43,135 nt of DNA from Nitrososphaerota archaeon (GTDB lineage: Archaea; Thermoproteota; Nitrososphaeria; Nitrososphaerales; Nitrosopumilaceae). Within the stretch, counting starts at the first letter, position 1. Each line of letters opens with the position of its first letter. The notes below the pieces were generated by a model that had not been told where the DNA came from, made no database searches, and saw only the letters and a list, made by a program, of their open reading frames with translations. Both the position numbers and the translations under genes were made by a program. The DNA lies in NCBI GenBank assembly GCA_028867675.1, contig JAGWGA010000014.1, forward strand, positions 1-43,135, written 5' to 3'. Positions 8,193 through 11,180 of the stretch are shown in pieces.

Positions 8193-8573
8193 CTATCTTG
8201 ATTTGGACCACTTTTTCATCCATTGTAAAAGGTCTATCACAGATTCAACAAGTTCTTGTCCTTTACTAGTAAGCTTGTATTCTACTCTTGGAGGAATCTC
8301 GTTGTAGGATAATCTTTCTAATACTCCACTTTTCTCAAGTTCCTTTAGTCGCGTAGATAAGGTCTTACTGCTTATTCCTTTCAAAGCTTGCTTGAATTGT
8401 TTGTATCTTACAGGATCTGTTGTACAGCATAATGGAATTAAAATCTCAAGAGTACCTCTCTTTGTAATTATTTTTCTAAGTTTGGATGTCTCTGACATTA
8501 AAGAAGAAGCATCATAACCTTCAAAACTACAACTATCTTTAATCATTGGAAGTGATTTTCTTTTAGTTTCCAT
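8193..8573 (-). CDS. HxlR-family winged-helix regulator, candidate arsenic sensor
   Basis: A 126-residue HxlR-type transcription factor: the recognition region reads RYKQFKQALKGISSKTLSTRLKELEKSGVLERL and the wing RVEYKLTSKGQEL. It is divergent from arsC1, and the only palindrome between them (8572-8594) covers its own start codon, so autoregulation is expected. It has Cys15 and the pair Cys49-Cys50 (LCCTTDPVRY) at the end of the helix before the recognition helix, a position where HxlR proteins normally have no thiols. Vicinal thiols in a winged helix next to ars genes suggest direct As(III) sensing, as in ArsR, but this is inference. Confidence 0.85.
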   Translation of the reverse strand: METKRKSLPMIKDSCSFEGYDASSLMSETSKLRKIITKRGTLEILIPLCCTTDPVRYKQFKQALKGISSKTLSTRLKELEKSGVLERLSYNEIPPRVEYKLTSKGQELVESVIDLLQWMKKWSKSR

Positions 8574-8614
8574 AATTACACTAACTGTAATTATTTCTCC
8601 TAGACAACTTAAAT
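8564..8614. repeat. Promoter module copy 1 (51-bp direct repeat)
   Basis: This stretch recurs at 9098-9148 with one mismatch in 51 bases (A at 8602, T at 9136). It contains the first ten bases of hxlR read on the minus strand (ATGGAAACTA), the palindrome at 8572-8594 and a nearly symmetric TATA-like sequence (acttaaat) at 8607-8614 that can serve both directions. Confidence 0.95.
8572..8594. promoter_or_regulatory. Operator palindrome 1 between hxlR and arsC1
   Basis: ATAATTACA-ctaac-TGTAATTAT is a perfect inverted repeat with 9-bp arms and a 5-bp spacer. On the minus strand it lies between the TATA-like box and the hxlR start codon, a repressing position. Relative to arsC1 it lies just upstream of the box, where a factor could block TFB or activate. 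HxlR proteins bind as dimers to sites of this kind (family knowledge). Confidence 0.8.
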
Positions 8615-8645
8615 GGTTTACTAACTAAACTATGCCAGAAATAAA

Positions 8646-9080
8646 ATGGGATTGTTTGGAAAAAAACATCAAAAAATGGTTCTGTTTGCATGTATAGAAA
8701 ATGCAGGTAGAAGTCAGATGGCAGAAGGATTCTTTAGAAAATATGCACCAGAGGGATGGAGTACTATGAGTGGGGGTTCTAGTCCAAAATCATACGTAAA
8801 TCCTCTTGCAGTACAAGTAATGAAAGAGGCAGGAATAGACATTAGCAATCACAAGGCAAAGATCCTATCTGAAGAGCAGATCAGAATGGCAGATTTGAAG
8901 GTAAACATGGGATGCATGGATACAACAGAATGCCCATCTCTTATTCTAGGAAATTATGTGGATTGGGGAATTGAAGATCCTAAAGACAAGCCAGTAGAAA
9001 AAGTCAGAGAAATAAGAGACAAAATAGAGTCCAAGGTAAAAGAACTAGTATCTCAACTTGTAGCAGAACAAATAAAGTAA
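8646..9080 (+). CDS. arsC: Arsenate reductase, LMW-phosphatase type (copy 1)
   Basis: Reduces arsenate to arsenite by a thiol relay, acting in the cytoplasm. The 144-residue protein has the phosphatase loop CIENAGRS (CX5RS) with the nucleophile Cys16, then MGCMDTTEC with Cys90 and Cys96 as relay cysteines, and the WGIEDP segment carrying the usual acidic residue. The N-terminus carries eight extra basic residues. The TATA-like box at 8607-8614 gives an initiation site close to the ATG. A T8 run follows the stop, so it is probably monocistronic. It is a clear paralogue of the gene at 9936-10358. Confidence 0.9.
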   Translation: MGLFGKKHQKMVLFACIENAGRSQMAEGFFRKYAPEGWSTMSGGSSPKSYVNPLAVQVMKEAGIDISNHKAKILSEEQIRMADLKVNMGCMDTTECPSLILGNYVDWGIEDPKDKPVEKVREIRDKIESKVKELVSQLVAEQIK

Positions 9081-9097: not shown

Positions 9098-9148
9098 TAG
9101 TTTCCATAATTACACTAACTGTAATTATTTCTCCTTGACAACTTAAAT
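9098..9148. repeat. Promoter module copy 2 (51-bp direct repeat)
   Basis: Second copy of the module at 8564-8614. Read on the minus strand it still carries the first codons of hxlR (ATG GAA ACT), which run into a stop after six codons (METIRR). This shows that the module was copied from the hxlR-arsC1 intergenic region and placed ahead of arsM. Confidence 0.95.
9106..9128. promoter_or_regulatory. Operator palindrome 2 upstream of arsM
   Basis: Identical to the palindrome at 8572-8594: 9-bp arms ATAATTACA and TGTAATTAT around ctaac. It lies 13 bp upstream of the TATA-like acttaaat at 9141-9148, the same geometry as for arsC1, so both units should answer to the same regulator. Confidence 0.8.
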
Positions 9149-9170
9149 GACTTTACGAGAGAATTTCAAC

Positions 9171-9929
9171 ATGAATGAAGTTATCAAAGAAAAGGTAAAA
9201 GAGAGATACGGCAAGATTGCACTTACGGGCAATTCTGATTGTTGTTGCATGCCAGGCGAATGCACTCCTAGTGATTCACCTATTGATGCTACAAAGATGA
9301 TAGGTTATGATCAAGAAGATTTGAAATCAATTCCAGAGGCTGCTATATTGGGTGTTGGATGTGGTGCTCCGATAAAATTTGCAGAACTTCAGGAAGGTGA
9401 AACAGTCCTAGATCTTGGATCTGGTGCAGGAATTGATGTATTCTTGTCTGCAAACAAGGTATCAAAGTCTGGTAAAGTAATCGGCATAGACATGACAAAT
9501 GAAATGTTGGATAAGGCCAGAAAAAATGCAAGAGATGGCAATTATACCAATGTAGAATTTCGGAGGGGGGACATTGAAAAGAACATTCCAGTTGATAACA
9601 GTACAGTTGATGCAGTAATTAGCAACTGTGTGATCAATCTTACAACTGACAAGACTAGTGCATTCAAGGAAGTTTATAGAATATTGAAAAAAGGTGGAAG
9701 AATGGTTATCTCTGATCTTGTAACAGATAGGGAACTTGACCATGACCAAGTAAGTCATGAACAGTGGTGCAGCTGCATAGATGGAGCCTTAACACAAGAG
9801 CATTATCTTGAGAGTATCAAAAAAGCTGGTTTTGAGAATGTCAGTATTCTAGACCAGAGAACGTACATGGAAGGTGAGAAGGTAGATGGAAGAAAAATCA
9901 CCAGTCTTGTGATTAAAGCAATAAAGTGA
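9171..9929 (+). CDS. arsM: Arsenite S-adenosylmethionine methyltransferase
   Basis: Methylates trivalent arsenic using S-adenosylmethionine. The SAM loop VLDLGSGAGIDV lies at residues 79-90. The As(III)-binding cysteines expected in ArsM are all present: Cys24-26 and Cys31 in the N-terminal CCCMPGEC, Cys64 in GVGCGAP, Cys153 in SNCVINL and Cys200 in WCSC. An in-frame ATG at 9147 lies inside the TATA-like box of the duplicated promoter, so transcription should begin after it. The ATG at 9171 is therefore preferred, giving 252 residues and an almost leaderless transcript. It is first in a unit with arsC2 and the aquaporin. Confidence 0.92.
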   Translation: MNEVIKEKVKERYGKIALTGNSDCCCMPGECTPSDSPIDATKMIGYDQEDLKSIPEAAILGVGCGAPIKFAELQEGETVLDLGSGAGIDVFLSANKVSKSGKVIGIDMTNEMLDKARKNARDGNYTNVEFRRGDIEKNIPVDNSTVDAVISNCVINLTTDKTSAFKEVYRILKKGGRMVISDLVTDRELDHDQVSHEQWCSCIDGALTQEHYLESIKKAGFENVSILDQRTYMEGEKVDGRKITSLVIKAIK

Positions 9930-9935
9930 GTGTTC

Positions 9936-10358
9936 ATGAATTTCTATGAGCAATCCACGAATCAAAAGAAAGTACTCTTTGTATGTATTGAAAATGCTGG
10001 TCGAAGCCAGATGGCAGAAGGCTTCTTTAGAAAATATGCCCCAAAGGGATACGAACCAGTAAGTGCTGGAACAAAACCTACGCCTGAGATAAATCCAGTT
10101 GCAGTAGAAGCAATGAAAGAGATTGGCATCGACCTTACCGAACAAAAACCAAAGATGCTTTCCAATGAAATGATCAAAGACTCGATTCTAAGTGTTAACA
10201 TGGGTTGTATGGACAAAACTGAATGTCCTGCGCTTTTTATGAAAAATACAGTTGATTGGAATATTGAAGATCCTAAAGGTAAATCGCTTGATCAAGTCCG
10301 AAAGATTAGGGATAACATTGAACAAAAGGTAAGGGAAATTTGCAAAACTCTAGAATAA
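9936..10358 (+). CDS. arsC: Arsenate reductase, LMW-phosphatase type (copy 2)
   Basis: Second LMW-phosphatase-type arsenate reductase, 140 residues from ATG 9936 (an in-frame GTG lies at 9930). It shares with copy 1 the phosphatase loop CIENAGRSQMAEGFFRKYAP, the VNMGCMD.TECP relay-cysteine motif and the IEDPK segment. The two differ most in the middle (SAGTKPTPEINPVAVEAM against SGGSSPKSYVNPLAVQVM), where SAG is the normal LMW-phosphatase form. It lies six bases after arsM and overlaps the aquaporin start by 19 bases, so the three genes form one unit. Confidence 0.9.
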   Translation: MNFYEQSTNQKKVLFVCIENAGRSQMAEGFFRKYAPKGYEPVSAGTKPTPEINPVAVEAMKEIGIDLTEQKPKMLSNEMIKDSILSVNMGCMDKTECPALFMKNTVDWNIEDPKGKSLDQVRKIRDNIEQKVREICKTLE

Positions 10359-11023
10359 CAAGCAAGTTATCGCATAACCAAAAAGCGTTCTTTGCTGAAA
10401 TAATTGGTACATTTGTTGTAGTTGTATTTGCAACTGGTTCTGTAGTTTTAGACGCAAAATATCCTGGAACATTTGGTCTTTGGTTTGTTGCACTTGCTCC
10501 GGCAATTGCAGTGGCTAGCATGGTGTATGCATTTGGAAAAATATCCATGGCTCATTTTAACCCTGCAGTAACCGTAGGCTTTCTTATTACAAAAAATACA
10601 CCAAAGAATTTCTTTAAACTATATCTTGTCGCAGAGATAACTGGTGCAATACTTGGAAGCATTTTTGTAAAATATGTTATAGGTACACAAGCAAATATTG
10701 GTGCAAATGCACCCAATTATCATTTTTCAATTCTGCTCATTATTGGTGTTGAGATTTTAGCAACTGCCTTACTAATGGCAGTCATTATAGTAGTTGTTCA
10801 TACAAAGGGGTTGAGAGGTTTTAGCGGAATTGTAATCGGTGGAATGGTTGGTCTTGACATTTTCTTTTTAGCATTTATCTCTGGAGCTTCGATGAATCCA
10901 GCAAGAGCACTAGCACCTGCCATAGTATCTGGATATCTTAATGATCTTTGGCTTTACTGGACTGCACCTTTCATAGGTTCTTTCATAGTATCTCTTATCT
11001 ATAGAAAAAAGTTTGTGAAATGA
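10340..11023 (+). CDS. Aquaporin of the NIP/AqpN-like type, probable arsenite channel
   Basis: A 227-residue major intrinsic protein with six hydrophobic helices and both signature loops: NPAVTVG at 74-80 and NPARALAP starting at 186. The segment ISGASMNPARALAPA resembles plant NIPs and bacterial AqpN proteins, which pass As(OH)3 and other metalloids, more than water-specific AqpZ, which has a His in the fifth helix (here Phe/Ala). Cotranscription with arsM and arsC2 and the absence of ArsB or Acr3 suggest that it lets arsenite leave down its gradient, as AqpS does in Sinorhizobium. Start is a TTG within arsC2. Confidence 0.85.
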   Translation: MQNSRITSKLSHNQKAFFAEIIGTFVVVVFATGSVVLDAKYPGTFGLWFVALAPAIAVASMVYAFGKISMAHFNPAVTVGFLITKNTPKNFFKLYLVAEITGAILGSIFVKYVIGTQANIGANAPNYHFSILLIIGVEILATALLMAVIIVVVHTKGLRGFSGIVIGGMVGLDIFFLAFISGASMNPARALAPAIVSGYLNDLWLYWTAPFIGSFIVSLIYRKKFVK

Positions 11024-11082: not shown

Positions 11083-11180
11083 GCCGGGGTCGCCTAGCCT
11101 GGTAGGGCGCGCGCCTGGAAATTAATAACCATAAAGCGCGTACTCGCAAGGGTTCGAGAGTTCAAATCTCTCTCCCGGCG
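11083..11180 (+). tRNA. tRNA-Ser(GGA) with a 14-nt intron
   Basis: Acceptor stem GCCGGGG pairs with TCCCGGC (one G-U), discriminator G73, then an encoded CC at 11181-11182. D stem GCCT/GGGC, anticodon stem CGCGC/GCGCG, loop CTGGAA-A with anticodon GGA at 11117-11119. The variable arm is long (ACTC-gcaa-GGGT), as class II tRNA-Ser requires. T stem GAGAG/CTCTC encloses TTCAAAT. The long variable arm, G73 and GGA anticodon agree on serine. The anticodon loop is interrupted after position 37. Confidence 0.95.
11121..11134 (+). other. tRNA intron at position 37/38
   Basis: attaataaccataa interrupts the anticodon loop between A37 and A38. The expected bulge-helix-bulge can be drawn: central helix CTGG against CCAT (three pairs and one C-T mismatch), a three-base AAA bulge on each side cut after its second A, and a 7-base inner loop. 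At 14 nt it is near the short end for archaeal tRNA introns. Confidence 0.8.

Follow-up and report, generated by a model that had tools for sequence, protein, structure and literature searches.

Ammonia-oxidizing archaea appear, as judged from comparative sequence analysis, to control their ars genes via a thiol-bearing HxlR-family protein and not via the usual ArsR. Since its three cysteines are kept in almost every relative, there is a strong case that this protein may be an arsenic sensor of a new type. From our point of view, it is probably a dedicated repressor of the ars cluster, in which an ArsR-like action would be realised on the HxlR fold and trivalent arsenic would be sensed by three thiols.

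The regulator and the ars cluster

The window is the whole stretch of DNA that was analysed, namely 43,135 nucleotides of contig JAGWGA010000014.1 from a Nitrososphaerota archaeon. It carries the following genes and codons:

8193..8573, (-) strand, HxlR-family regulator of 126 aa whose cysteines are C15, C49 and C50 only (ORF translation and Pfam)
8529..8531, (-) strand, codon of C15, in the coil N-terminal to helix 1 (translation, predicted model; 117/118 orthologues)
8424..8429, (-) strand, codons of C49-C50, at the C-terminal end of helix 2 and in the helix 2-3 loop (translation, model; 118/118 orthologues)
8646..9080, (+) strand, arsC1, ArsC-like LMWPc protein (profile matches below the curated NCBIfam cut-offs)
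9171..9929, (+) strand, arsM, arsenite methyltransferase (PRK11873, 289.8 bits, above the cut-off)
9930..10358, (+) strand, arsC2, ArsC-like LMWPc protein (profile matches)
10340..11023, (+) strand, aquaporin (MIP), presumed As(III) channel (PF00230, E 4.7e-42)

The preliminary description had read the ORF at 8193-8573 as an HxlR protein with C15 and C49-C50 that lies divergent to arsC1, and translation, domain match and neighbours all agree with this reading. Membership in the HxlR/DUF24 family is evident from the Pfam scan (PF01638, E 4.4e-22, 78.2 bits against a cut-off of 20.8) as well as from the nearest solved structures, which are of the HxlR family and include YodB, HypR, HxlR and QsrR. 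The ArsR domain (PF01022, HTH_5) is absent from the regulator, for which the same scan returned HxlR and a sub-cut-off HTH_34 match only. A phmmer match to the engineered repeat protein OR497 was discarded as spurious.

The cluster divergent from hxlR has the order arsC1-arsM-arsC2-aquaporin, and it is this linkage that suggests an arsenic role for the aquaporin. For arsM, the listed ORF starts at 9147, while position 9171 is the likelier start from the sequence and its relatives. Farther along, Rfam identifies a tRNA gene (11083-11180) that was missed by ARAGORN with bacterial settings and whose extra bases suggest an intron.

Conservation of the three cysteines and of the ars linkage

When 398 genomes of the phylum were searched, a group of proteins at about 65% identity or more stood out, followed by a drop to about 45%; a second search, in 400 genomes of the order, gave many further orthologues, which were retrieved and read. 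From these whole-genome searches, 118 intact orthologues (117 distinct) in ammonia-oxidizing archaea were obtained. The preliminary description had proposed that C15, C49 and C50 be looked for in ars-linked orthologues, and they are indeed conserved: C49 and C50 are kept in 118/118 and C15 in 117/118 intact orthologues, and 108 of the 115 orthologues with at least 300 bases of upstream sequence are divergent from arsM or arsC. A position within or divergent from an ars operon, as looked for in an ars repressor, is thus found for 108 of the 115 testable orthologues. The cysteine columns are counted among only 24 fully invariant columns of the alignment, 21 of which are other positions. The 27 orthologues of the first set all have three cysteines and no more, and these occupy identical alignment columns. 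The CC pair occurs in none of 89 other HxlR proteins, the outgroup, which was drawn from the mainly unrelated HxlR proteins that a scan of the whole collection of genome contigs gave. The N-terminal redox cysteine motif usual in YodB/QsrR proteins (a cysteine adjoining helix 1 at its start and preceding GKW by about 13 residues) is present in 66 of these 89 and in 0/27 orthologues.

The first divergent gene at the 108 linked loci is arsM in 93 cases and arsC in 15, and some of the linked clusters (L051, L055, L058) comprise arsC and an aquaporin without arsM. Conversely, G068 was the only genome of the order in the first sample in which an arsM of at least 58% identity occurs and the regulator has no orthologue. 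Among the seven non-divergent copies, L283 is preceded by what remains of an arsM gene, whereas L236 has in its vicinity a DUF2703 gene and a weak, Acr3-like SBF match. Five intact copies show neither an ars gene nor a remnant in the available flanking sequence, some of them being on short contigs. At L263:3246-5241, an intact HxlR gene with all three cysteines adjoins a cytochrome P450 gene, with no ars gene nearby. The sole orthologue without C15 (L296, 4010-4369) has no ars gene in the 4.6 kb of sequence available and no promoter element. Together with L073, L074 and L301, it exemplifies that hxlR decays or loses its C15 at loci devoid of ars genes. Degraded hxlR copies without ars genes are seen in genomes G382, G362 and G618. 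As a separate observation, G378 contains a second, decaying hxlR-arsM cluster (L072:6675-8520), in which hxlR is broken and arsM truncated, and the arsC and aquaporin matches are kept.

Promoter elements

The following elements were located around the divergent promoter and upstream of arsM:

8572..8594, palindrome A, first copy, 23 bp, ATAATTACA-N5-TGTAATTAT, overlapping the hxlR start (strain-specific full form)
8605..8615, (-) strand, shared TATA-like element CATTTAAGTTG between hxlR and arsC1 (conserved block)
8616..8630, (-) strand, dyad B, GTTTAGTTAGTAAAC, consensus GTTTAC-N3-GTAAAC, candidate operator that separates the TATA-like box from the start of the ars genes
9098..9149, (+) strand, duplicate, 52 bp long, of block 8564-8615 from the hxlR promoter, before arsM (51/52 identical by eye)
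9106..9128, palindrome A again, identical to the first copy, upstream of arsM

It had been claimed earlier that a single palindrome covers the shared promoter. Such a palindrome does exist at 8572-8594, but it has a second copy at 9106-9128, inside the 52-bp duplicated block, and it is not the element conserved in the orthologues. Palindrome A is perfect in the window and its inner 17 bp also occur at L046, whereas elsewhere only the hxlR-proximal half is found. Palindrome A was rejected as a general operator because only the window and its near relatives preserve the 5' arm. Besides its two copies, the whole genome contains only 17 sites with up to three mismatches, each of them with two or three.

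Some 60 bases of the region that separates hxlR from the ars genes could be aligned without gaps across 28 promoters, and the best dyad of this block is GTTTAC-N3-GTAAAC, with a pairing of 0.893, whereas 500 column shuffles reached 0.845 at most; the promoters compared are related sequences, and since dyad B overlaps the core promoter, it could in part be conserved for promoter function. The neighbouring element at 8605-8615 would act as the TATA box. Dyad B together with the TATA-like element was recovered from the ars locus of every searched genome that has an intact HxlR gene (25/25) and from none of those that lack one (0/3), among them the arsM-bearing G068. Additional matches lie before a second arsM in G326 and, in one weaker case, elsewhere in G283. 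In G326, the arsM genes form a tandem pair (L069:6321-8059) with a dyad-plus-TATA element before each. With a strict expression, 99 of 115 promoters are recognised as carrying the block, and the majority of those missed differ from it only slightly.

Taken together, linkage and the conserved promoter dyad make control of the ars cluster by the HxlR protein well supported at the level of sequence, and the protein very probably acts as the regulator at this locus.

Thiol geometry and the nature of the signal

The AlphaFold2 model of the regulator is a monomer with a mean pLDDT of 79.5. The CC pair had been thought to lie just before the recognition helix, which is not what the predicted monomer shows: C49-C50 terminate helix 2 (41-48), and the recognition helix spans residues 69-81. 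Residues 1-21, including C15, form a coil of moderate to low model confidence.

The view that HxlR proteins mostly sense through a single cysteine has to be corrected, as sensors with two cysteines exist in this family, namely YodB (PMC6798810) and QsrR (PMC12893000). In YodB, Cys6 pairs with Cys101'/108' (PMC6798810). The QsrR repressor of Staphylococcus aureus, likewise an HxlR/DUF24 protein, links its Cys4 across the dimer to Cys29' or Cys32' (PMC12893000), i.e., an N-terminal cysteine to a loop cysteine of the other subunit. Residue 33 of the QsrR chain (Cys29) aligns with C50, and the helix 2-3 loops are of similar length, so that a helix 2-3 loop thiol of the QsrR type is present in the regulator. 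QsrR differs in that it senses quinones and oxidants, is not linked to arsenic and lacks a vicinal CC pair. Moreover, C15 lies about 10 residues further N-terminal from helix 1 than the QsrR cysteine, in coil of moderate to low model confidence, and its reach to C49/C50 is therefore uncertain. The C50 equivalence and the N-terminal pairing render an inter-subunit site plausible and at the same time keep a redox mechanism alive. HypR/YybR of Bacillus subtilis shares the HxlR fold and has been solved in reduced and oxidized form (4a5n, 4a5m), but its Cys49 aligns with residue 64 of the regulator, a leucine; the equivalence of C49 with HypR Cys49 is thus ruled out, and the shared number is a coincidence.

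Among the known As(III)-responsive ars repressors, thiol positions differ and the ArsR backbone is common (PMC11868830). In Corynebacterium glutamicum, CgArsR binds As(III) via Cys15-Cys16 plus Cys55' (PMC11868830). With its vicinal cysteine pair, a cysteine from the other subunit and its control of ars genes, this type 3 site of CgArsR1 is the counterpart of the arrangement proposed here (PMC11868830). ArsR proteins, however, belong to a different winged-helix family and the cysteine positions are unrelated, so that any likeness would be convergent.

Based on the conserved sequence features, we consider it rather likely that the HxlR protein senses trivalent arsenic directly. An inter-subunit arrangement of the thiols, which is suggested by analogy, is more tentative and falls slightly short of an even chance. 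The complete proposal, in which an HxlR repressor would directly sense trivalent arsenic at an inter-subunit C15'/C49/C50 site across the ammonia-oxidizing archaea, may be right or wrong with equal probability.

One could also imagine that the protein regulates the ars cluster but forms a disulfide (between C15 and C49/C50', or within C49-C50) in response to electrophiles or to oxidation of its thiols, with arsenic as an indirect trigger only. The inter-subunit disulfides of QsrR and YodB, the alignment of C50 with QsrR Cys29 and the presence of YodB, QsrR and HypR among the nearest solved folds speak for this possibility. It is nevertheless unlikely, given that the arsenic linkage is near-exclusive, the conserved cluster contains no oxidoreductase target, the usual redox cysteine position is lost and the invariant thiols number three, not two.

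Less likely still, and on the whole improbable, is that mainly methylarsenite or another soft metalloid or metal is sensed via the CC pair, with a structural or subordinate role for C15. SpArsR needs no more than two thiols for MAs(III) (PMC11868830), and the predominance of arsM as first divergent gene (93/108 linked loci) would fit; yet C15 is invariant except in one copy, which is not ars-linked, and clusters of arsC and aquaporin without arsM exist.

Other candidate regulators

That no ArsR is found in the cluster had been stated before and holds true. The source genome encodes three HxlR proteins; no match to an SBF/Acr3-type transporter was found in it. Among nine HTH_5 matches genome-wide, the eight loci that were read include no small ArsR with a recognisable arsenic thiol site. 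It is hence very improbable that the cysteines of a purely local regulator are structural and another factor reads the true arsenic signal, since, even though 21 other columns are equally invariant, loop cysteines without a role would hardly stay so strictly conserved.

Elsewhere in the phylum, ordinary ArsR-domain proteins occur near arsM (L171:4935-5222, L178:6415-6795), and the HxlR arrangement therefore seems characteristic of the ammonia oxidizers sampled. In another family, arsM is divergent to a PadR-like regulator (PF03551; L176:3566-3901; N-terminus MSDCCPELPNCCDMRG), which on account of its vicinal cysteines may be a further non-ArsR candidate. In family f5, short cysteine-rich AbrB/MazE-like proteins are encoded directly upstream of arsM (L173:4549-4818; L181:4710-4970; L182:4728-5105).

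Proposed mechanism and implications

If the HxlR protein is a three-thiol arsenic repressor, a homodimer would bind dyads on either side of the shared TATA-like box, the first located ahead of the ars genes and the second where hxlR begins, and would thereby block both promoters. Trivalent arsenic, either As(III) or MAs(III) produced by ArsM, would be coordinated by three thiols, with one subunit contributing C49 and C50 and its partner C15, which could move the helix 2-3 region and release the DNA. Arsenate reduction, methylation and channel-mediated efflux would then be induced.

The HxlR family, its thiol sensing and arsenic-responsive repressors are each already known, and their combination did not turn up in the open-access literature searched, where no paper joining HxlR proteins with arsenite was found. 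A single small protein and a short promoter fragment would be enough to test the claim directly. If it proves true, the conserved HxlR sensor would add a second protein family for arsenic-sensing chemistry and could provide a new part for arsenic biosensors. It would further account for the control of arsenic methylation in abundant nitrifying archaea.
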